Assembly (NCBI RefSeq): GCF_024832785.1
Contig: NZ_CP116615.1
Span: 310,001-374,000, forward strand
Length of the DNA: 64,000 nt
Source: Fontisphaera persica
GTDB lineage: Bacteria > Verrucomicrobiota > Verrucomicrobiia > Limisphaerales > Fontisphaeraceae
Direction of reading: 5' to 3'
This document shows, one piece after another, positions 36,828 to 49,269 of the stretch. Numbering within the stretch: position 1 is the first letter of the stretch; each line of letters begins with the position of its first letter. Under the pieces are notes generated by a model. The model was not told the DNA's origin. It did no database searches and saw only the letters and a list, made by a program, of their open reading frames with translations. The position numbers were made by a program, and so were the translations under genes.

Positions 36828-37694
36828 ATGAAACGTCCTGTGCCGCGCACCGTGTCCAGAGCAAGCAGGCCCCGTCCAACCGAGGGGGCTTGTCCGGTGC
36901 CCGGCCTGGAGCGGGGGCTGAGGATTTTGGAATTGCTGGTGGATTATCCGGAGGGATTGACCCAGCGCGAGATTGCCGAGCGGTTGCAGTACCCGGCCGC
37001 CAGTGTGCACCGTCTGAGCCAGACGTTGCAGGCGCATGGATACCTGGTGCGAGATGAGGAAGGGCGGGTGTTGCGGCTCAGTCGGAAACTGGTGGCGATG
37101 GGCAGCCGGGTGTTGGCGGAGGAGGACTGGCTGAGTGAGGCGATGGATGCCGCCAAGGTGTTGCGGGATGGGGTAAAGGAGACTGTTTTGATTGGCACGC
37201 TGGCCGGCGATGCGCTGGTGGTGTTGGGGCAGGTGCTGGGCACGCATCCCTTCAAGTTTTCGGTGGATTTGGGCGCGCGTCTGCCGCTGCATACGGCGGC
37301 GCCCGCCAAGGCGATGCTGGCTTTTCTGCCGGAGGAGGAGCGGCGGCGGGTGTTGCAGCAGATAAAATACGAAAAATTCAATGAGCGCACCTTGTGCAGC
37401 GTCCAAGCATTGGAAGCGGAGCTAATGCAGGTGGAGCGGCAGGGGTATGCGGTGGACCGGCAGGAGCAACTGACGGGCATTCACTGTGTGGCGGCCCCGG
37501 TCTTCAACCGGCACGGCTATCCGGTGGCGGCGTTGTGGACCACCGGGCCGGCGGACCGGCTGCGCGAGAAAGATTTTCCTGCGGTGGCCACTTTGGTCAT
37601 GGAACAGGCGCAGCGAGTTTCGCGGCGGTTGGGGTTTGGATGGATTCCCGCGCCTGAAAAGAACAATGGCAAAACTGGAAACGGGCATGAATAG
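36828..37694 (+). CDS. IclR family transcriptional regulator
   Basis: A 288-residue regulator starting at the ATG at 36828 (MKRPVPRTVSRA); the longer frame from 36693 runs back through the promoter region. The N-terminal winged helix-turn-helix is at about residues 25-85 (LERGLRILELLVDYPEGLTQ, then EIAERLQYPAASVHRLSQTL). The C-terminal IclR effector domain includes VDLGARLPLHTAAPAKAMLA and ITGIHCVAAPVF-type segments. The next gene starts 8 bases before its stop, so it heads a four-gene operon with the HZS-alpha-like fusion, cupin and TPR protein and probably controls it. IclR effectors are usually small carbon metabolites; this one is unknown. Confidence 0.92.
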   Translation: MKRPVPRTVSRASRPRPTEGACPVPGLERGLRILELLVDYPEGLTQREIAERLQYPAASVHRLSQTLQAHGYLVRDEEGRVLRLSRKLVAMGSRVLAEEDWLSEAMDAAKVLRDGVKETVLIGTLAGDALVVLGQVLGTHPFKFSVDLGARLPLHTAAPAKAMLAFLPEEERRRVLQQIKYEKFNERTLCSVQALEAELMQVERQGYAVDRQEQLTGIHCVAAPVFNRHGYPVAALWTTGPADRLREKDFPAVATLVMEQAQRVSRRLGFGWIPAPEKNNGKTGNGHE

Positions 37695-40600
37695 CAGGGC
37701 ATTGGGCATCGGATTGGCTTTAGGATGGGGGTGGATTGGCCTCCTGGCCTGCAGCGCCGAGGCGGCCACGGCCGGCTGGGCGGAGGCGTTGCTGGCGCAA
37801 CGCAAGGCGGCCATGGCAAACGCCGTGGTGCAGGAATCGCCCTGGTTCACCACCGGCCCGTTGCCGGCCAAATCTTTTGAGGAGGCGCTGTTTCCTGAGC
37901 ACGGAGTGGACTTGGAGGCGCGCAGCGCCGACGGGAAACGCCGACTTTGGACGCAACGGGATTATCCCAACGGGGTGGTGAACGATTTGCGGGCGGGCAA
38001 CAGCACGTCCTCCTACTTTTATCGCACTTTGGTGGCCAAGGCGGGCGGGCCGCTGCGGATTGGCCTGGGGAGTGATGACGGCTGCGAGTTCTGGTTTAAT
38101 GGAGAAAAAGTGCTGTCGCGCGATGTGCCGCGGGGGGCGGGGCCGGACCAAGATGTCGTCAATGTCAAGCTGCGGCCCGGCACCAACACCGTTTTGTTCA
38201 AGATTTACAATCGTACCGGCAATTGTGGTTTTTACTACCAGAGCGGGGTGTCTTCCCCTTCGGCGGTGGTGGCGGGATTGGCCGCCCAGTATCCTCGGGA
38301 GATGGCTTTGTTTTCCAAATATGGCCAGCCGGCACGGTGGCTGCGCCAGATGGACAGCACGGCGGTGGAGCAGGAGGTCATTGGCGGTTTGCTGAAGCGG
38401 TTGAAGGAAGCCGACGCGGCGCGCGAGCGTTTGCAATCCCTGGTGAGCGCCAGGACGCCGCCCGACAATCCGGCCTGGTTGAATCTGCTGGTCGAAGTGG
38501 CGGGGGAGGTGGAGGCCTTTGAGCGGGCGCGGGGTGAACTGGAGCGGCTGAATCCGGCAGCCTTGCGACGGGCAGTGGAGGATTTGCGGACAACGTATGG
38601 GGAAAAATATCGCGAAGGGGCGGAGGTGCTGGAGGAACTGGGGCGTTTTGAACAGGAGCTGCCGAAGGTGAAAGCGGCGCTGGCGGCGGGCGAGCGCCAG
38701 GCCCTGAAGGTTCTGCAACAATACCAGGCGCTGGAGCGGCGGGCTTTGTTGAGCAACCCAGCCCTGGATTTTGAGGAAATCCTGCTCATCAAGCGGCAGG
38801 AGGGCAACCTCGGCCTGCCGCAAAACTGGCAGGGCAACACCAACCTGAATCCTCGCATGGACAATGAACTGGTGCGGATGAAGGTGCGCGAGGAAAATCC
38901 AGTTTTGCGGCGGGTGTACAAGCCGGCGAAGGACGTTTTTGTGGGAGATGTGGATTTGCATTACGACGGCCAGAAACTGCTTTTTTCATCCATCGGTTCG
39001 CATGGCCGATGGCAGGTGTTTGAGATTCATGTGGACGGCACGGGGCTGCGGCAGGTCACTCCGGGAGATGAGCCGGACATTGACAGCTACGATGCCATAT
39101 ACCTGCCGGACGAGCGGATTATTTTCGATGCCACGACACCCTTCACCGGCGTGCCTTGCGTGGGGGGGGCGGATTACGTGGCCAATCTGCACCTCATGAC
39201 GCCGGACGGCAAACACATCCGGCGGCTCTGTTTTGACCAGGATAACAATTGGTGTCCGGTAATGTTGCCCAATGGCCGGGTAATGTATCTGCGATGGGAG
39301 TACACCGACAGCGCGCACTACTTCAGTCGCGTATTGATGTCCATGAACCCCGATGGCACGGGGCAGATGGAGTTTTACGGCAGCAATTCCTACTGGCCCA
39401 ACTCCCTGTTTTACGCGCGGCCGCTGCCGGGGAGCGCGACGAAATTTGTGGGCATCGTGAGCGGGCATCACGGCGTGCCGCGCATGGGCGAGCTGGTCTT
39501 GTTCGATGCGGCGCGCGGGCGGCAGAGCGACGCCGGGGCGATTCAGCGCATTCCAGGCTACGGCAAGCCGGTCAAGGCCGTCATCAGGGACGCACTGGTG
39601 GATGGTTCCTGGCCGAAGTTTCTGCATCCGTTTCCTTTGAGCGATAAACATTTTCTGGTGGCCTGCAAGCCAACGCCGCAGGCCGCCTGGGGCATTTACC
39701 TGGTGGACATTTACGACAACATGCTGCTGTTGCGGGAGGAGCCGGGCTACGCGCTGTTGGAGCCGGTGCCGCTGCGCAAGACAGAGCGGCCTCCCATCAT
39801 CCAGGACAAGGTGCGTCCGGGCGCGACCAACGCGGTGGTGTATCTGCACAATGTTTATATGGGGGATGGTCTGAAGGGCGTGCCGCCGGGGACGGTAAAA
39901 AGCCTGCGCCTGTTTCAATATGAGTACTCCTATCGCAACATGGGCGGGCATTATTTCATAGGCATGGAAGGCGGCTGGGATGTGCGGCGCCTGATTGGCA
40001 CGGTGCCGGTGCAGGCTGATGGGTCAGCGTTGTTCAACGTGCCCGCCAACACGCCCATTGCCATCCAGCCGCTGGATGCGGAAGGCAAGGCCCTGCAACA
40101 GATGCGGAGCTGGTTTGTGGGCATGCCTGGTGAGTATGTGTCATGTGTGGGGTGTCACGAGCGCCAGAACCAGTCTTCCACGTTGCGCAATGCCAGTGCG
40201 GCCCGCAGCACGCCGGTGGACCCGCAACCTTGGTACGGGCCCAAGCGGGGATTCAGTTTTTTGCGCGAGGTGCAGCCGGTGCTGGACCGGTATTGCTCCG
40301 GGTGCCATGACGGCAAAGACCCGTCCCGTCCCAACCTGGCCAACACTCAAATCGTGGGGACTACCGTGGGGGCGCGGCTGCCGGTATCCTATTTGAATTT
40401 GCATCCTTTTGTGCGCCGGAATGGGCCGGAGGGCGATTACCATGTGCTCACGCCGCTGGAATTTCATGCTGACACCAGCCGCCTGGTGCAGATGTTGCGC
40501 AAGGGTCACTACAACGTGCGGTTGGATGCCGAGGCGTGGGACCGGCTGATTACCTGGATTGATCTGAATGTGCCGGCCCACGGCACTTTCCATGAGGCCG

Positions 40601-41646
40601 GCCACATCCCGTCCAACTTTGCCCAACGGCGGCGGGAGGCCGCCATCAAATACGCCAATGTGCATGAGGATATCGAGGAAATTCCCCAGCCCCAGCCGCC
40701 ACGGCCGGCCTTTCAACCACCACCGCCGATGCCGCCGCGGCCGGCGCCAGTAACGCTGGCCGGCTGGCCGTTGAGTGAGGCGGAAGCCAGGGCGCGGCAG
40801 GCTCAGTTGGGGACGGTGGAGATGCGGCTGGACTTGGGGGGCGGCCAGACCCTCGTGTGCCGCCGAATTCCGGCCGGCGAATTTCCGATGGGCGATGTGC
40901 AGGGGGAGGCGGATGAGTATCCGATGAAGGTGGTGAAAATTGAGCGGCCTTTCTGGCTGGGGGTGATGGAGGTGAGCCTGGCCCAGTACCAGCAATTTGA
41001 TCCGCAGCATCGCAACGGTTATTACGACATGCACTACAAGGATCAGGTGAAGCCGGGTTATCTCATGGATGCGCCGAATTTGCCGGTCATCCGGGTGTCC
41101 TGGGAGCAGGCCATGGCGTTTTGCCGCTGGCTTTCCGCACGCACCGGCAAACAAGTGACCCTGCCCACCGAAGCACAGTGGGAATGGGCCTGCCGGGCTG
41201 GCACAGCCACTCCTATGTATTATGGGGATTTGAACACGGATTTTGCGCTGTTCGCCAATCTGGCGGATGCCACTCTGCGCCAACTGGCGGTGCAGGGCGT
41301 GGACCCGCAGCCCATCCCCAACCCGGACAAGTTTTGGGATTTTGTGCCGAAGGACGCGCGGTTTAATGATGGTGTGCTGCATCTGGCCGAATGTGGCCGG
41401 TACCGCCCGAATGCGTGGGGCTTGCACGATATGATTGGCAATGTGGCGGAATGGACCTTGGATGATTACCGGCCATACCCATACACCCCCACGCTGCTTT
41501 CGCCGCCCACCGCCCAGACGCGCAAAGTCGTGCGCGGCGGCTCGTGGGCCGAGCGGCCCAAGGAATCGCGGGCCTCCTCCCGCCTGGATTATCCAGTCTG
41601 GCAGCGCGTGTACAATGTGGGCTTCCGCGTGGCCGTGCTGGATTGA
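37687..41646 (+). CDS. Hydrazine-synthase-alpha-like diheme cytochrome fused to an FGE/SUMF1-fold domain
   Basis: A 1319-residue exported protein; the start ATG at 37687 gives signal MNSRALGIGLALGWGWIGLL. Domains: an N-terminal ligand-binding-like beta sandwich (GSDDGCEFWFNGEKVL, residues about 115-200); a coiled-coil-like stretch about 230-370; a beta-propeller region about 415-760 (LLFSSIGSHGRWQVFEIHVD, YLPDERIIFDATT); two c-heme sites, CVGCH (820-824) and CSGCH (870-874); a Pro-rich linker about 1010-1030; and a C-terminal FGE-sulfatase/PvdO-fold domain from about 1056 (WGLHDMIGNVAEW). N-domain, propeller, then two hemes is the layout of anammox HzsA, but no HzsB or HzsC gene is here. The FGE catalytic cysteine pair is absent (RGGSWAERPKESRASSR), so formylglycine generation is unlikely. 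Function unknown; probably periplasmic redox. Confidence 0.85.
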   Translation: MNSRALGIGLALGWGWIGLLACSAEAATAGWAEALLAQRKAAMANAVVQESPWFTTGPLPAKSFEEALFPEHGVDLEARSADGKRRLWTQRDYPNGVVNDLRAGNSTSSYFYRTLVAKAGGPLRIGLGSDDGCEFWFNGEKVLSRDVPRGAGPDQDVVNVKLRPGTNTVLFKIYNRTGNCGFYYQSGVSSPSAVVAGLAAQYPREMALFSKYGQPARWLRQMDSTAVEQEVIGGLLKRLKEADAARERLQSLVSARTPPDNPAWLNLLVEVAGEVEAFERARGELERLNPAALRRAVEDLRTTYGEKYREGAEVLEELGRFEQELPKVKAALAAGERQALKVLQQYQALERRALLSNPALDFEEILLIKRQEGNLGLPQNWQGNTNLNPRMDNELVRMKVREENPVLRRVYKPAKDVFVGDVDLHYDGQKLLFSSIGSHGRWQVFEIHVDGTGLRQVTPGDEPDIDSYDAIYLPDERIIFDATTPFTGVPCVGGADYVANLHLMTPDGKHIRRLCFDQDNNWCPVMLPNGRVMYLRWEYTDSAHYFSRVLMSMNPDGTGQMEFYGSNSYWPNSLFYARPLPGSATKFVGIVSGHHGVPRMGELVLFDAARGRQSDAGAIQRIPGYGKPVKAVIRDALVDGSWPKFLHPFPLSDKHFLVACKPTPQAAWGIYLVDIYDNMLLLREEPGYALLEPVPLRKTERPPIIQDKVRPGATNAVVYLHNVYMGDGLKGVPPGTVKSLRLFQYEYSYRNMGGHYFIGMEGGWDVRRLIGTVPVQADGSALFNVPANTPIAIQPLDAEGKALQQMRSWFVGMPGEYVSCVGCHERQNQSSTLRNASAARSTPVDPQPWYGPKRGFSFLREVQPVLDRYCSGCHDGKDPSRPNLANTQIVGTTVGARLPVSYLNLHPFVRRNGPEGDYHVLTPLEFHADTSRLVQMLRKGHYNVRLDAEAWDRLITWIDLNVPAHGTFHEAGHIPSNFAQRRREAAIKYANVHEDIEEIPQPQPPRPAFQPPPPMPPRPAPVTLAGWPLSEAEARARQAQLGTVEMRLDLGGGQTLVCRRIPAGEFPMGDVQGEADEYPMKVVKIERPFWLGVMEVSLAQYQQFDPQHRNGYYDMHYKDQVKPGYLMDAPNLPVIRVSWEQAMAFCRWLSARTGKQVTLPTEAQWEWACRAGTATPMYYGDLNTDFALFANLADATLRQLAVQGVDPQPIPNPDKFWDFVPKDARFNDGVLHLAECGRYRPNAWGLHDMIGNVAEWTLDDYRPYPYTPTLLSPPTAQTRKVVRGGSWAERPKESRASSRLDYPVWQRVYNVGFRVAVLD

Positions 41647-41690: not shown

Positions 41691-42349
41691 ATGAATCGGC
41701 GAACTCACCTCAAGATGATGGCCGCGGCGGCCGGCGCAGCAGCGCTGGGCGGCGGCTTGGTTACCGCAGCACAACCCTCTACGAAAATGAAAACCGTGAA
41801 ACTCCCCAAATACACCAACGCAGACTTCTACGATAAAAGCGGCAAGTTTTTGCCGGAAAAGGCCAAAGCCGCCTATTTCGACATGATGAAGCGGCATGGC
41901 TATGACATGCATATTGAGCATGCCAAAAAATGGGCAACGGATTTTTGGGTCACCGATTTTGGCCTTGGCGACTTCGTGAACGTGGGCATGGGCGGGGTGT
42001 TCTGGATTAATTCCCCGGAGCACAATTATTTTGCGCATGAGATTTACCTGCTGCCCGGCCAGATGATTGTGGAGCACGCGCATGTGGAGACCGCCAAGGC
42101 CAAACCCAAGATGGAAAGCTGGCATGTGCGGCACGGCAGTGTTTATTGCTTTGGCGAGACCGGCGGTGACATCCCGGCAGGGGTGGCGCTGCCCAAAAGC
42201 CAGGAAGCTTACATCACCGTGCGCCGTTGCCGGAGGAGGAAAAGGCGGAGGTGATGCAGTTGTTTTTGCAAGTCCGCAAGCTGCTCATGCAGCAGGTTTA
42301 TGATCAATTGATGCCCAGCACCGCCAAATCCATACCCACCCGAAAATGA
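41691..42349 (+). CDS. Exported cupin (D-lyxose isomerase-like), apparent one-base frameshift
   Basis: The reading frame opens at MNRRTHLKMMAAAAGAAALG (export signal) and encodes a cupin. Metal-binding-type residues are in MIVEHAHVETAKAKPKMESW and WHVRHGSVYCF, and FGLGDFVNVGMGG resembles D-lyxose isomerases. As written, the frame ends at 42254 with basic nonsense (VRRCRRRKRRR). Adding one base near 42222-42224 restores YITVRPLPEEEKAEV and runs to a TGA at 42347-42349 that overlaps the next ATG (ATGA). That fit strongly suggests the restored frame (219 residues) is the real or ancestral gene. Either the sequence lacks one C or the gene was recently inactivated. Sugar isomerase activity is only a family guess. 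Confidence 0.75.
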
Positions 42350-44220
42350 TGGATCGCTTGCTCAATAACTGGCGCGAGGCGTGGCGCGGGCGCGGCCCGT
42401 GGGCGCCTTATTTGCGGGCTATTTACCGCTTCTGGGACCGGCTGCTGGCGGCGCTGTTGTTTGTGCCGCGGTTTGTCTGGCAGGGATTGCTGCGGGTGTT
42501 TGAGGCGCTCGAGAACTTTTCCCTGCGCGGCCTCATTTTTGGCGAGGGCAGCGGCGGTTATGGCTATGGTTATGGCTATGGCTACGGCTACGGTTATGGT
42601 TATGGCAGCGGCAAGCCGCGTCCCAAGCGGAAGTGGTACAATCCTTTGGTGTGGATCGCCGCCCTTTGGCGGCTGGTGAGCACCGTTACCCGCGCGTTTT
42701 TTGGCTTCCGCACGGAAGGCATGGTGCCCGGGGTGGTGGCCTATGGCTACGGCCGCACGCGCGCCAAATTGGAAAGCGCGGTGGACAAACACCGTCTCCT
42801 GCTCAAACTCAAGGCGGTGCCGGCGGTCCTCACGATTCTGGGCTGGCTGGGCCTTCTGGGGTTGATGGTGTGGTTCACACCGGCACGCATCGAGGCACGC
42901 TACACCAAGTGGTCTGATGACGCCTACCAGATGGGCAATTTGCCGCGCGCGCGCGTGGCCAGTGAACGCCTGCTGCAGCTTGACAGCACGAATCAATCGG
43001 CCCATTTGCTGCGGCTGGCGCGCAATCTGGCGGCGATGGGATATGCGGATGATGCCCTGGCGCTGGCCAGCCGCACGGCCAAAGACAACGCCCAGGTGGC
43101 CGAGATGCAAATTGAGGTGGCGGAGAATATTATTGGCAACCCCGCCGCCTCGTCCAACATGCTCCATCACGCCGAGCGTTACTTGCTGGGTTTGTTTGCC
43201 AACAAACCGGATCAGGCCGAGGCCGCCGTGCTCCTGGGGCGCTATTACTACCGTCTGGGCGATTGGGAGGAGGCCCGCTGGTATTTGAAACGCGCCTTCC
43301 CCAAGCGCAATGATGCGGGACTGGTGCTGGCGGCCATTGAAATGGGTTACGGCAACACCCTCGCCCGCGATCGCTGGGCCTCCGCCGCCGCCGAATTTTT
43401 CAAGCTGAAAACCACCACCGGACGGCCCAAGGATCCCAAGACCTGGATGGCCCGCCGGCAATGGGCCGAGGCCGAAATGATGCAGGGCAACCTGACCAAC
43501 GCCCTCACCATTCTGAACGAAGGCATCGCCAGCACGGGCCTCAAAATCTACCACCGCATGGCGGCCAGCATTTATAGCGATTTAATCAAGCGCAGTTGGG
43601 CCTTGGACCCCACCAATCACTGGCAGCGCCTGGAATGGATGCGGACGGGTTTGAATCATGATCCGCAGAATGAGTTTTTGCTGCGCCAACTGGCGGCCAT
43701 GGCCAACAGCCAGGGCCCCACCGCCGAGGCGGCGCTATCCTTGGGACGCGAATTGGGCGCGGTGGCAGCCAATCGCCCCGCCCTTTACTATTACCTGGGC
43801 ATGGATTTGTACAGCCGCGGCCAGGAGCAGGGCGCCCGCAATCATCTGGAAGTCGCTTACCTGGGGCAGCCCGACAACCCGGTGGTGGCCAACAATTTTG
43901 CTTATCTTCTGGCCATCACTGACCCTCCGGACCCCTCGCGGGGGTTGAACATCATGAACACCGTCATCGAGCGGCATCCGCGCCAGCTCATTTTCCGGGA
44001 AACGCGCGGCCAGATTTTGCTGAAAATGCAGCGATGGCAGGAGGCCTTGGAAGATTTCGAGGCCGCCAAACCCCTATTCCAAAGCAACTCCGTGTTTCAT
44101 GCCAGCCTGGCCAAGGTCTATGCGGGCTTGGGCCAAAAGGACCTCAGCCGGCAGCATGAAAGCTTGGCGGCGGAATTGCGCGCCGAGGCATTGCGCTTGC
44201 GGGCCGCCCAGAACCCTTGA
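42346..44220 (+). CDS. Membrane-anchored TPR protein with (Gly-Tyr)8 tract
   Basis: A 624-residue protein. The N-terminus holds a hydrophobic segment about 30-50, then a Gly-Tyr tract with eight tyrosines (Tyr72-Tyr86, every second residue), a basic stretch PRPKRKWYNPL, and a clear membrane helix at about 145-170 (VPAVLTILGWLGLLGLMVWF). The rest (about 180-624) is helical TPR-like repeats. Examples are LLGRYYYRLGDWEEARWYLKRAF and YLGMDLYSRGQEQGARNHLEVAY. The start overlaps the cupin stop as ATGA, so translation is coupled. Tyrosine-rich tails of this kind occur on exopolysaccharide tyrosine kinases and their substrates, so phosphorylation is possible but unproven. Confidence 0.85.
   Translation: MMDRLLNNWREAWRGRGPWAPYLRAIYRFWDRLLAALLFVPRFVWQGLLRVFEALENFSLRGLIFGEGSGGYGYGYGYGYGYGYGYGSGKPRPKRKWYNPLVWIAALWRLVSTVTRAFFGFRTEGMVPGVVAYGYGRTRAKLESAVDKHRLLLKLKAVPAVLTILGWLGLLGLMVWFTPARIEARYTKWSDDAYQMGNLPRARVASERLLQLDSTNQSAHLLRLARNLAAMGYADDALALASRTAKDNAQVAEMQIEVAENIIGNPAASSNMLHHAERYLLGLFANKPDQAEAAVLLGRYYYRLGDWEEARWYLKRAFPKRNDAGLVLAAIEMGYGNTLARDRWASAAAEFFKLKTTTGRPKDPKTWMARRQWAEAEMMQGNLTNALTILNEGIASTGLKIYHRMAASIYSDLIKRSWALDPTNHWQRLEWMRTGLNHDPQNEFLLRQLAAMANSQGPTAEAALSLGRELGAVAANRPALYYYLGMDLYSRGQEQGARNHLEVAYLGQPDNPVVANNFAYLLAITDPPDPSRGLNIMNTVIERHPRQLIFRETRGQILLKMQRWQEALEDFEAAKPLFQSNSVFHASLAKVYAGLGQKDLSRQHESLAAELRAEALRLRAAQNP
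42556..42606 (+). repeat. Hexamer repeat encoding (Gly-Tyr)8
   Basis: Alternating ggc/ggt and tat/tac codons form an in-frame 6-bp repeat inside the TPR gene. Third-base variation (tat/tac, ggc/ggt) shows the tract is kept by selection on protein sequence or is old. It could still expand or contract by slippage in units of two residues. Confidence 0.9.
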
Positions 44221-45464: not shown

Positions 45465-45503
45465 TTGACGGCGGAGGGGGATGTCATATAAGCATTCTCC
45501 GCC
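45465..45503 (+). promoter_or_regulatory. Sigma-70 promoter with flanking inverted repeat before exbB
   Basis: TTGACG (45465-45470), a 16-bp spacer and TATAAG (45487-45492) make a near-consensus promoter ending 43 bases before the exbB ATG. An inverted repeat ggcggag (45470-45476) and ctccgcc (45497-45503) brackets the -10, a good place for a repressor or activator. Confidence 0.65.
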
Positions 45504-45535
45504 AACGCGGTAGTTAGTAATACGGATAACTCTCA

Positions 45536-46936
45536 ATGAGGAGAATGAACTATAAAAGGTACAAGGTGCTCCAAAGCGGGGGAGCCATGCTCTTGTTTCT
45601 GCTGGTGCTCACGGTGGCCGCCGTGGCACAAACCCCTCAATCTTCAACCGGTGGAACCAACGGCCTGTTTGAATTGTTCAACGAGCATTTGCCGCCAGGA
45701 GCGCGCTGGCGGTTGGAATATCAAGGCAGTGGCATTCGGCGGGGCGGAATTGCGGGTTCAAGGGTCAGCACAAACTATCTCTACCTGCGCCGCAGCGACA
45801 GTCCGATAACCATGGAGGGGCTTTCGATACCCATTCGCGAAAACCCCGGGCCGGGAGAGTATCGCTACCTGTCCTTTGCTTGGATAAAATGGGGCGAAGG
45901 TCAGGTGGGGTTGCAGTTCCATGTCCAACCGGACGGAACGGCGGGCGGCAGCACGAATTTCATTTATTTCGCCGGCCAAGGGGACCTCACCAATGGCAAG
46001 GCTTTGAGAATTGCAATGGATGCCGGCTCAAGCTGGTTCCGCGCGACGCGGGATTTATGGAAGGATTTTGGTGAGTTCACCATCACCGGCGTTTCCTTTA
46101 TCGCGATGGGCGGAAGGGATGCAGGTTTTGATAACCTCTACCTCGCGCAGAAGGAAAGTGATTTCAAAAATGCGCCCCCTATCATTCCCTCCCAAGTTGT
46201 GATGCCCGAGCCGCTGCCCCAGGATGCTGGCGAGCACCAAGCCGCCATGGCGGAGGAGGAAACCTCAAAAGGGGTGGGGGCAAATGTGGACATTGACTGG
46301 GGCGAGCAAATCAAGCGGGGCGGTGCGTGGATGTACCCGCTGTACCTGTTGGGATTGCTGGCGGTGGTGATAGCCGTGCAGCGATTGCTGACAGTACGCG
46401 AAGACCGGCTGGCCCCCCGCGCGCTGCGGGAGGCGGTGCGGGCGCATCTGGCCAGCCGCGATTACGAAGCGGCGTTGCGGGATTGCGACCAGCATCCCTC
46501 AACCTTGGCCGAGGCGCTGCGTTTTGTTTTATTGCATCGGGGGGCCGGTTTGGAGGTGGCCAGCCAGTCGGCGGGCGATATAGCGGCACGGGATATTCGC
46601 GGGCACTTGTCCCGGATTTACCCCCTGTCCGTGATCGCTTCGCTGGCTCCCTTGTTGGGGTTGTTGGGCACCGTCATCGGCATGATTCAGGCCTTCGGCA
46701 TGGTTGCCCTGTATGGTGATGAAGGCGGCGCTTCGATGCTGTCGAATTCCATTTCGCTGGCCTTGATCACTACTGCCGCCGGTTTGATCATTGCCGCGCC
46801 GTCCATTGCCATTTATTCCATTCTCAAAAACCGCATCATTAATCTGGCCTCCATCATCGAAGTGGAAATCGAAAATGCCACCACGGAGATTTTCCTCGGC
46901 GGGAACAAACCCGGCGGAGCGAAAGACACGCAATAA
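45536..46936 (+). CDS. ExbB/TolQ/MotA-type proton channel with N-terminal periplasmic domain
   Basis: A 466-residue protein, about twice the usual ExbB length. A hydrophobic signal/anchor (GGAMLLFLLVLTVAAVAQ, residues about 15-32) leads into a 180-residue beta-rich extracytoplasmic domain (WRLEYQGSGIRRGG, YRYLSFAWIKWG, VGLQFHVQPDG) resembling a carbohydrate-binding sandwich. The ExbB core follows: WMYPLYLLGLLAVVIAVQRL, the long cytoplasmic loop, IASLAPLLGLLGTVIGMIQA and LALITTAAGLIIAAPSIAIY. The conserved channel threonines are in these last two helices. It heads a four-gene cluster with two ExbD genes and a TonB-like protein. ATGs at 45536 and 45545 are possible starts; the second has GAGGAG very close upstream. 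Confidence 0.9.
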   Translation: MRRMNYKRYKVLQSGGAMLLFLLVLTVAAVAQTPQSSTGGTNGLFELFNEHLPPGARWRLEYQGSGIRRGGIAGSRVSTNYLYLRRSDSPITMEGLSIPIRENPGPGEYRYLSFAWIKWGEGQVGLQFHVQPDGTAGGSTNFIYFAGQGDLTNGKALRIAMDAGSSWFRATRDLWKDFGEFTITGVSFIAMGGRDAGFDNLYLAQKESDFKNAPPIIPSQVVMPEPLPQDAGEHQAAMAEEETSKGVGANVDIDWGEQIKRGGAWMYPLYLLGLLAVVIAVQRLLTVREDRLAPRALREAVRAHLASRDYEAALRDCDQHPSTLAEALRFVLLHRGAGLEVASQSAGDIAARDIRGHLSRIYPLSVIASLAPLLGLLGTVIGMIQAFGMVALYGDEGGASMLSNSISLALITTAAGLIIAAPSIAIYSILKNRIINLASIIEVEIENATTEIFLGGNKPGGAKDTQ

Positions 46937-46948
46937 AAGGCGAGCGCC

Positions 46949-47413
46949 ATGCGCATTCACTTGGATGACGAAAACGAGCCGGGCGTCCTAATGTCGCCGC
47001 TGATTGACTGTGTCTTTTTGCTGTTGATTTTCTTTCTGGTCACCACCATGTTGCGGAAATGGGAACGGCAAATCCCGGTGAAACTGCCGTCGGCCACCGC
47101 CAGTCTCTCCTCTACCAAGTCCATGCCGGAGACCGAGATCATCGCGATGGGCACGGATAAAAAACTTTTCGCCGTGGTTTCCCATGATGCCTATTCGGGG
47201 CAGACGACGTATCTGCCCATTAATAACCTGCCAGCCTATCTGGCGGCCTTGCGCGCCCGTCGCGGGGCTGACGTTCCGCTGGAAATCGCCGCGGAGCGGG
47301 GGGTGTCTGTGCAGACGGTGATAGACGTGTTCGACATGTGCCAGTTGCAGGGGTTCAAGCAAACACGGGTCCGTCTTGGAGGAAAGCCCAGTGCAGATCA
47401 AACTTCAGAATGA
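46949..47413 (+). CDS. ExbD/TolR-family protein, first copy
   Basis: A 154-residue single-pass protein. The short cytoplasmic N-terminus MRIHLDDENEPGVLM precedes the membrane helix SPLIDCVFLLLIFFLV, whose Asp is the conserved proton-carrying residue. A periplasmic domain of about 110 residues follows. It starts 12 bases after the exbB stop. The second ExbD gene begins inside its last codons, so translation is coupled. Two unlike ExbD copies suggest a heteromeric stator. Confidence 0.92.
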   Translation: MRIHLDDENEPGVLMSPLIDCVFLLLIFFLVTTMLRKWERQIPVKLPSATASLSSTKSMPETEIIAMGTDKKLFAVVSHDAYSGQTTYLPINNLPAYLAALRARRGADVPLEIAAERGVSVQTVIDVFDMCQLQGFKQTRVRLGGKPSADQTSE

Positions 47414-47813
47414 GGAAGAGCCGGAAGTCTCGATGGCGCCCTTGATTGACTGCGTCTTTCTGCTGTTGATCTTCTTTTTGGTTTCCAGCATGACCAAGGT
47501 CAAGAGCAAAGACATCCCCGTCAATCTGCCCGCCTCCCAGGCAGCGGAAAAAATGCGCCCCAGCGACAAGCAGGTGGTGGTGGGCATTGACCGCGACGGC
47601 AAATTCTATTGGAACGGCGCCCCGTGTACCAGTAATTTTCTTCTCGAACAACTGCGAAGCCTTTGCATTGCCGACCCCGGCCGCCGTGTGCGCATTGATA
47701 TGGACCAAGACGCTCCTTTTGGGCGCTTTGTCGAAGTTATGGACGCCTGTCAGTTCTACAATCTGGGCAATATCGGCATTCGGACTTATGACGAGAACTA
47801 CAACCGCCGCTGA
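47391..47813 (+). CDS. ExbD/TolR-family protein, second copy
   Basis: A 140-residue single-pass protein starting at GTG 47391, chosen because GGAGG (47378-47382) sits 8 bases upstream. A TTG at 47376 is also in frame. The acidic N-terminus QIKLQNEEEPEVS is followed by MAPLIDCVFLLLIFFLV with the conserved proton-path Asp, then a periplasmic domain. It overlaps the first copy by 23 bases and the next gene by 26 bases, so all three are tightly linked. Sequence identity to copy one is high in the helix and low outside it. Confidence 0.9.
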   Translation: MQIKLQNEEEPEVSMAPLIDCVFLLLIFFLVSSMTKVKSKDIPVNLPASQAAEKMRPSDKQVVVGIDRDGKFYWNGAPCTSNFLLEQLRSLCIADPGRRVRIDMDQDAPFGRFVEVMDACQFYNLGNIGIRTYDENYNRR

Positions 47814-49269
47814 CCGGCGAACGGTGCTCATCTCCTGGATCGTCGCGTTGCTCGTGTTGGGAGGTGGCACCTTGTGGCTTGCTCTGATGCCGGCTCAGCC
47901 GGTGAAGAAGCTGCCTCCCACCGAAACCAAACGCCGTCTCCAGCAGCCTCCGGCTTCGCGCCCTCCCAAACCACTCCCCGAACAGTTTGTGTTGGACCTC
48001 GTCAAACAGGCTGAAATACTGACCAAACAGGAATTGCAACAGCGGTTGCAAAAGTTTGAACAAATGAGCGTGGACATGAGCCAGCGCAAACTTCAGTTGC
48101 TGAACAAAATCGAGGCGCGTCCACTTCTTTCCCACTCGCCCACCAATGCCAATGACACCTCCATGGCACGCGAAGGTTCATTCACCAACTACCCCCCATT
48201 GGGGGCTGACCCCTCTGTGGAGGCACTGTACCAGCGGCTGGCCCAGTACGAATCTCAGATCCAGAACGATTACATTCATGTCAAGGCAGCAGAGTGGGCG
48301 CTGCAGCGTGGCCAATCTTTTCCGGAAGTCCTCCTGAGCATGCAACCGCCCTCGACACTCATGCCGCCTTTCGAAGCATTGATCAGCAGGCAGACCGGGG
48401 GCACGGACTGGAGACGGTCGCCCGACAGCCCTGCCAGCGCCGGCTTGGTGATTGCCAATGTGGAGGATTTAAAGAATTACCGGGGGGTGCTGGGGCTGGC
48501 TTCGCTGGAATCAGGCTTGGCGGAATCCCGGCTTGACAGTCTTTTTAGCTCCAGCCGGCGAGGACGTCCCCCCCCGCCTGGTTTCAGCGGAGCCACCGGC
48601 GGGACCCGTGGTCCGCCGATGGAGTATGCTCCCTATGAGGCCAAGCTGGACCCCGAGATGGTGAAAGCGCAAGCCCTGCCTGGCCGCCGGTTTTCGCGGA
48701 GCTCCGAGCGGCGCGGCTGGTTATACATCAATACTTGGTATATGATCGGTCCGTGGGATGGTTTCGGGCGGACCGATTTCTCCATCCCCCACCCGCCCGA
48801 ACTGGCGGTGGACCTCGACGCCACTTATACCGATGGTCTGATAGGCCGGGGCATCGAGGAAACCGAGTCGGACCCCCTCAAGGTCAAGGGCAATGTGGTC
48901 ATGCTGGATGGCACATTGCGCTGGAAGTTCATGCAGAGCGAATCCATGCATAATACCGTCCCCGTGACCGTTGATGGGGGAGTTTACTATGCCTATACGG
49001 AACTCTATTTTGACGAGCCGGCGATTATGTTGGTGGCCTTGGGCACGGATGATGCCGGCAAAATCTGGATCAACGGCCAGGAGATTTGGAAGGACGTAAA
49101 ACCAAGCTGGTATCACATTGATGAACATTTGGTGACCTTTCAATTCCAGCAGGGGTGGAATCGGATTCTGGTACGGCTGGAAAACACCGGCGGTGCAGCC
49201 ACCGGTTTCAGTTTCCTCATCTGTCCGAAAGATGCGGCAACTCTTTCCAAAACGAGCAAAAGCCCTTGA
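47788..49269 (+). CDS. TonB-like single-pass protein with novel C-terminal domain
   Basis: A 493-residue protein starting at the ATG at 47788 (MTRTTTAADRRTVLIS); the upstream frame is only the exbD shadow. One N-terminal membrane helix (VLISWIVALLVLGGGTLWLAL, in two parts) is followed at once by a Pro-rich segment (TETKRRLQQPPASRPPKPLP), the TonB layout. A helical region (about 60-140) and a Pro/Gly-rich stretch follow. The C-terminal domain (about 310-480) has WYMIGPWDGFG, YYAYTELYFDEPAIMLVALG and IWINGQEIWKDV, which resembles PA14/galactose-binding sandwiches and not TonB_C. It is probably the output arm of the ExbB-ExbD motor, reaching the periplasm or outer membrane. The TonB His of the SHLS motif is absent. 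Function unproven. Confidence 0.75.
   Translation: MTRTTTAADRRTVLISWIVALLVLGGGTLWLALMPAQPVKKLPPTETKRRLQQPPASRPPKPLPEQFVLDLVKQAEILTKQELQQRLQKFEQMSVDMSQRKLQLLNKIEARPLLSHSPTNANDTSMAREGSFTNYPPLGADPSVEALYQRLAQYESQIQNDYIHVKAAEWALQRGQSFPEVLLSMQPPSTLMPPFEALISRQTGGTDWRRSPDSPASAGLVIANVEDLKNYRGVLGLASLESGLAESRLDSLFSSSRRGRPPPPGFSGATGGTRGPPMEYAPYEAKLDPEMVKAQALPGRRFSRSSERRGWLYINTWYMIGPWDGFGRTDFSIPHPPELAVDLDATYTDGLIGRGIEETESDPLKVKGNVVMLDGTLRWKFMQSESMHNTVPVTVDGGVYYAYTELYFDEPAIMLVALGTDDAGKIWINGQEIWKDVKPSWYHIDEHLVTFQFQQGWNRILVRLENTGGAATGFSFLICPKDAATLSKTSKSP

Follow-up and report, generated by a model that had tools for sequence, protein, structure and literature searches.

A cluster of four tightly packed genes, exbB-exbD-exbD-arm, lies at positions 45536-49269 on the + strand of a 64,000-nucleotide stretch of Fontisphaera persica DNA, referred to below as the window. 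It encodes an ExbB/TolQ-like motor subunit, two different ExbD proteins and a force-transducer-like protein, here called the arm, whose C-terminal domain matches that of neither TonB nor TolA. A preliminary description of the window had proposed these four genes as a proton-driven machine with a glycan-binding arm.

The exbB gene (466 aa, 45536-46936) is separated by a 12-nucleotide gap from exbD1 (46949-47413), which is followed by exbD2 (47391-47813) and the arm gene (493 aa, from the ATG at 47788 to 49269), all on the + strand. The longest open reading frame of exbD2 runs from TTG 47376; GTG 47391 was chosen as the likely start because GGAGGA precedes it and because the N-termini of the relatives are similar. 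With this start, exbD1 and exbD2 overlap by about 23 nucleotides, and exbD2 and the arm gene by 26. The four packed genes and the two different ExbD proteins were thus correctly recognized in the preliminary description, and the overlaps that it gave the exbD genes were found at both of these junctions but not between exbB and exbD1. It had also placed the cluster behind a near-consensus promoter. A weak sigma-70-like match, TTGACG-16-TATAAG, is indeed present on the + strand at 45465-45492, 43 nucleotides 5' of exbB; it scores 10/12 and is the sole match in the window at two or fewer mismatches. Since 0.79 such matches are expected there by chance, it is not evidence by itself, and a stricter promoter scan of the + strand of the window found none. 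The cluster as such is far beyond chance because its gene order is kept in other phyla.

The motor genes were filed as ExbB/ExbD members on the basis of profile matches. ExbB matches Pfam MotA_ExbB (E 1.7e-21; 76.7 bits for a gathering score of 22.9), as do 14/14 relatives, and its model matches the fold of TolQ/ExbB structures with Z values up to 16.9. The pore-lining Thr379 and Thr412/413 are present and aligned with those of TolQ. Both ExbD proteins exceed the gathering score of Pfam ExbD (E 5.2e-19 for ExbD1 and 4.5e-33 for ExbD2) and have an Asp-bearing membrane stretch, PLIDCVFLLLIFF, which in ExbD1 holds the proton-path Asp20. Because the ExbD Asp, the ExbB pore threonines and the TolQ/ExbB fold matches are all in place, the motor subunits look functional.

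ExbB carries, as first described, an extra periplasmic beta domain. In the AlphaFold2 (AF2) model it forms a sandwich of about 170 residues (41-213; 45656-46174, + strand) between an N-terminal membrane helix (residues 4-29) and the first motor helix. The model is of fair confidence in this region, with predicted local distance difference test (pLDDT) values mostly between 57 and 91. VIA-align comparison of the predicted fold gave a Z of 11.2 to the carbohydrate-binding module (CBM) CBM8 and of about 10 to CBM29, and the domain is strongly conserved across phyla.

Layout and docking helix of the arm

The arm starts with a membrane helix (residues 10-32; 47815-47883) that is followed by a Pro-rich segment with 10 Pro in 32 residues (33-64; 47884-47979), in agreement with the TonB-like N-terminus initially reported. 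A periplasmic helical region (residues 65-257; 47980-48558), with AF2 pLDDT values of about 80-95 over most of its length, leads to a Gly/Pro-rich linker (48559-48642) whose length varies among relatives and to the C-terminal domain, or tip (residues 286-484; 48643-49239). All of these features are on the + strand. The arm has no Pfam match even at E ≤ 1 and no NCBIfam match. TonB_C and TolA_C, either of which would have spoken against the original assignment, were found by Pfam in none of the 16/16 arm family members, nor was a vWA tip; the three TonB_C proteins of the same genome were readily found. Nor did any of the 16 members give a convincing match to another Pfam domain. A standard TonB or TolA was therefore rejected as an identity for the arm, its C-terminal domain being unmatched in every member. 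We filed it as a protein that would work like TonB or TolA yet is neither.

The membrane helices of TonB and TolA dock through the SHLS motif, S-x3-H-x6-L-x3-S. At this place the close arm family has S-W (A-W or T-W in some members), S-W being the form found in F. persica, and the docking His (S-x3-H) is absent at the equivalent position in 16/16 close arms, as had been claimed for the arm of the window; in a single row a His is present, but only where the membrane helix ends. Two distant arms, G002 and G013, share the tip (33-34% identity over about 200 residues) and carry exact SHLS motifs (SIGFHTIVLGWLIFFS and SAVFHTLVLGWLALFS). They gave the only strict SHLS matches in 143,703 residues of collected proteins. 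Both are encoded directly behind ExbD, and G002 behind ExbB too. Moreover, one TonB_C protein of the F. persica genome (L089:946-1755, G000:C1 near 2836 kb) has an S-W helix, LSWLLALVVQGAILFGI, and no His; another has S-x3-H with the L and S in place. Given the SHLS motif in arms sharing the tip and the His-less S-W helix in the genome's own TonB_C protein, the missing His appears compatible with docking on the motor. Long arms that share the tip and carry an exact SHLS helix, each about 800 aa in length and encoded immediately behind ExbD, were seen at L055:7246-9645 and L057:484-2925; they probably form another branch of the family within Verrucomicrobiota.

Fold and conservation of the tip

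The tip is the most conserved part of the arm, with a mean column identity of 0.83-0.84 versus 0.43-0.70 elsewhere. Its AF2 pLDDT is only about 23-66. Structure matches to the arm covered residues 298-484 alone, and the best of them, at a Z of about 7.5 with a low-confidence model, were mostly jelly-roll sandwiches: CBM6, CBM35, CBM36, PA14 and sugar-binding domains of GH2 (glycoside hydrolase family 2). Pfam PA14 reached at best an E of 0.037, under the gathering score, and in 2/16 members. The PA14/galactose-binding-like sandwich of the preliminary description agrees with this apparent resemblance to CBM/PA14 folds, against which stand a marginal profile match and a low-confidence model. Sequence comparison of the tip with solved structures gave short repeat matches to designed propellers, which were judged spurious.

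An Asp pair in the tip, Asp421-Asp422 (49048-49053, + strand), is invariant in 16/16 alignment rows, distant arms included. Consecutive Asp-Asp residues bind calcium and sugar in PA14 lectins (PMC8092209), and as a lead the pair of the tip may be comparable to this calcium-binding pair. The predicted fold of the tip resembles the sandwich of the lectin domains as well, whereas the tip sits on a periplasmic motor arm and not on an adhesin.

The tip alone was rejected as a marker of the family, domains related to it being present in many unrelated secreted proteins of Verrucomicrobiota. A family of proteins of this phylum, about 400 aa long (L008, L010, L015, L017, L018, L023, L028 and L031), has a related W-x3-GPF domain at the C-terminal end, with the Asp-Asp pair exchanged for other residues, as in GCKNAWKIW.

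Distribution and genomic context of the module

The four-gene order is conserved well outside this genome, as the original assignment had required, in Bacteroidota, Lentisphaeria and other Verrucomicrobiota. It was found in Bacteroides faecis, B. finegoldii, B. acidifaciens and others, in Paraprevotella clara and P. xylaniphila, in one Dysgonamonadaceae and one Prevotellaceae bacterium, in rumen Lentisphaeria and in Haloferula luteola. Restriction to the Planctomycetes-Verrucomicrobia-Chlamydiae (PVC) lineage did not hold, most of the closest relatives found being Bacteroidota. Identity to close relatives is about 50% per protein: the arms are 45-51% identical over their full length and in the same gene order, and ExbD2 is 71-78% identical to the second ExbD of the relatives. 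The module is rare, being present in 4/388 genomes of the phylum (F. persica included), in 4/301 Bacteroidaceae genomes and in 1/395 evenly drawn Bacteroidota genomes, the one being the centre genome itself. A divergent set in Verrucomicrobiota (G393, G244, G214 and a second Haloferula locus) has the same order at four loci, with arms of about 650-810 residues and an ExbB without the extra domain. Trees of the arms and of the ExbB proteins keep the close family together and leave the deep splits between phyla open, so that no direction of transfer can be read from them.

In Bacteroidota, the motor adjoins a conserved surface cassette, whole or partly in view, in 7/7 loci with enough contig. 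Since the loci of B. faecis and of two Bacteroides metagenome-assembled genomes are near copies, about six lineages stand behind this count. The cassette is ordered SusC-SusD-FAS1-DUF5008-phosphodiesterase/LamG-M60-like-phosphodiesterase/LamG, and thus comprises SusC, SusD, a fasciclin (FAS1) protein, a DUF5008/DUF5122 propeller, two phosphodiesterase-like LamG proteins and an M60-like protein with an F5/8 domain. Genes for GH43, GH105 (Pfam Glyco_hydro_88), GH28, GH35 or GH2 enzymes occur at most of the Bacteroidota loci, and at that of the Dysgonamonadaceae bacterium a gene for a hybrid two-component regulator separates the cassette from the motor. Among 301 Bacteroidaceae genomes, the four with the motor were precisely the four with DUF5008 (chance 3e-9, uncorrected for kinship); in other Bacteroidota, weaker DUF5008 relatives are present without the motor. 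A literature search for DUF5008/DUF4983 returned unrelated papers only. The M60-like protein is without HExxH in 7/7 copies (L065:8470-10590 and its equivalents in six other loci) and may for this reason serve in binding instead of as a peptidase.

Next to the motor of the window, and likewise at the other Verrucomicrobiota loci, no SusC-SusD pair was seen. The F. persica genome has ordinary Ton genes, with seven ExbD matches (the two of the module included), three TonB_C matches and four Plug matches.

Possible roles of the module

The module resembles several known systems. It shares with the Ton system (ExbB-ExbD-TonB) the motor subunits, the succession of membrane helix, Pro-rich segment and globular tip and, in Bacteroidota, the linkage to SusC-type transporters, but it lacks a TonB_C tip and, in the close family, SHLS, and it has two ExbD proteins and a CBM-like domain in ExbB. 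TolQ and TolR are the best-scoring motor models and the arm is helical as in the Tol system (TolQ-TolR-TolA), whereas TolA_C is missing, no TolB or Pal was found among the flanks scanned, and the module is accessory and rare. Similar in layout are the vWA-tipped transducers of a 2025 survey, which in PVC bacteria and Bacteroidetes, among others, stand beside a TolQ-like gene and two unlike TolR-like genes and likewise have a membrane helix, a linker and a non-TonB tip (PMC12204202). The present module differs from them by its CBM/PA14-like tip, the absence of SHLS in the close family, the extra ExbB domain and the linkage to polysaccharide loci. In the TonB-ExbB-ExbD1-ExbD2 system of Xanthomonas campestris the exbD genes are also in tandem and one is linked to the pectin response, but its arm is an ordinary TonB (PMC3551730). 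As in SusCD polysaccharide utilization loci, the Bacteroidota copies of the motor adjoin SusC, SusD, surface lipoproteins and glycoside hydrolases. The literature searched, which was mostly that outside subscription journals, yielded no description of a CBM/PA14-tipped transducer, nor of a polysaccharide locus that encodes both a motor of its own and an arm other than TonB. In relation to this literature, the module is a new variant of the Ton/Tol/vWA class of proton-driven transducers; further force transducers have been said to await discovery (PMC12204202).

With moderate confidence, we favour a proton-driven motor of the ExbB-ExbD/TolQ-TolR type that moves a dedicated arm for the capture or import of complex glycans. 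An ExbB pentamer would surround the ExbD1/ExbD2 pair, the extra ExbB domains forming a periplasmic ring of CBM-like sandwiches. The membrane helix of the arm would dock on the side of the motor, and the arm would cross the periplasm by its Pro-rich segment, its helices and its flexible linker, so placing the CBM/PA14-like tip where it could engage either a partner in the outer membrane or glycan chains on their way in. The motor would then pull or release as protons flow. This reading is favoured by the linkage to the surface cassette in Bacteroidota, the joint occurrence of motor and DUF5008 in Bacteroidaceae, the CBM resemblance of the tip and of the ExbB domain, and the invariant Asp pair. 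Glycan handling is the most likely use of such a device, and an outer-membrane protein partner is its main rival. The fuller picture, in which an arm that grips glycans and a collar made of five domains that bind them pull long sugar chains across the outer membrane or away from it, the whole being encoded in polysaccharide loci and exchanged among gut Bacteroidota, Lentisphaeria and Verrucomicrobiota, is put forward only tentatively.

Several observations weigh against a glycan-handling motor. The tip model is of low confidence and a Z near 7.5 can mean merely a common sandwich; the Pfam PA14 match is marginal. DUF5008 is absent in the five non-Bacteroidota genomes with the module that were examined for it (F. 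persica, Haloferula and three of the Lentisphaeria group), and the motor can therefore exist without that cassette. The motor of the window adjoins no clear polysaccharide locus and no TonB-dependent receptor, so that a glycan role in F. persica would be assigned by homology. The glycan-binding machine first proposed for the window is partly supported, by the SusCD-type loci of Bacteroidota and by the CBM/PA14-like folds, and not by the surroundings of the motor in the window itself. Finally, loci without the SusCD cassette keep the tip at a similar level of conservation, which suggests that its direct partner may be something else.

In another reading, the tip of a Ton/Tol-type motor would bind an outer-membrane protein (e.g. 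a SusC extension, a porin or a lipoprotein) instead of sugar, its sandwiches making protein contacts. We consider this rather unlikely, even though the extreme conservation of the tip across phyla fits a fixed protein partner better than a substrate binder. Work cited in PMC12204202 implicates sandwich extensions of TonB-dependent transporters of Bacteroidota in their interaction with TonB, and SusC belongs to the same cassette in Bacteroidota. On the other hand, no common outer-membrane partner was seen next to the motor in the Verrucomicrobiota and Lentisphaeria loci, where DUF5008 is absent too, and the best fold matches are carbohydrate-binding modules.

An envelope-tension or tethering machine anchored to the cell wall appears improbable. 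In it, the tip and the ring of ExbB domains would attach to peptidoglycan strands or to surface polysaccharide of the cell itself, and the polysaccharide loci would be linked to the motor only through a shared mobile island. The TolR and MotB motors are anchored by peptidoglycan. The five genomes with the module and without the DUF5008 cassette would fit such a machine, as would the TPR genes that lie close to the module in both Lentisphaeria and the window, and likewise close to the PVC vWA transducers (PMC12204202). Yet the rare and patchy distribution of the module is unlike that of housekeeping envelope systems, and its strict co-occurrence with one surface cassette in Bacteroidaceae also argues against a tether. 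A device that reports a surface glycan to a regulator is very improbable: a hybrid two-component regulator gene does lie between cassette and motor in the Dysgonamonadaceae locus, with a related gene beside the Prevotellaceae module, pectate lyase induction in Xanthomonas requires ExbD2, and the tandem exbD1-exbD2 of that organism is tied to the pectin response (PMC3551730), but no regulator was seen beside the motor in the window or most other loci and the Xanthomonas ExbD2 operates beside an ordinary TonB.

The interest of the finding reaches beyond the single genome described here, and the module would add to the known periplasmic force transducers, TonB, TolA and the vWA proteins, a further kind. 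In gut Bacteroides, the energy for polysaccharide uptake is generally attributed to shared TonB-ExbBD complexes. A locus that brings its own motor, with an arm other than TonB, implies either that the substrate demands additional or different work or that the outer membrane can be energised in a second way. The relatives in the cultured gut species Bacteroides faecis, B. finegoldii and Paraprevotella clara make the module testable.

The neighbours of the module in the window (an AsnC-type regulator, a 3-keto-disaccharide hydrolase and a xylose-isomerase-like protein) have no match to genes beside the modules of the relatives. The TPR protein of the window, encoded two genes upstream of the motor (42346-44220), contains a (GY)n run. 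An open reading frame of 1386 aa (37486-41646) has a hydrazine-synthase-alpha-like middle domain and an FGE-sulfatase-like C-terminus, and weakly matches proteins in which the tip domain occurs.

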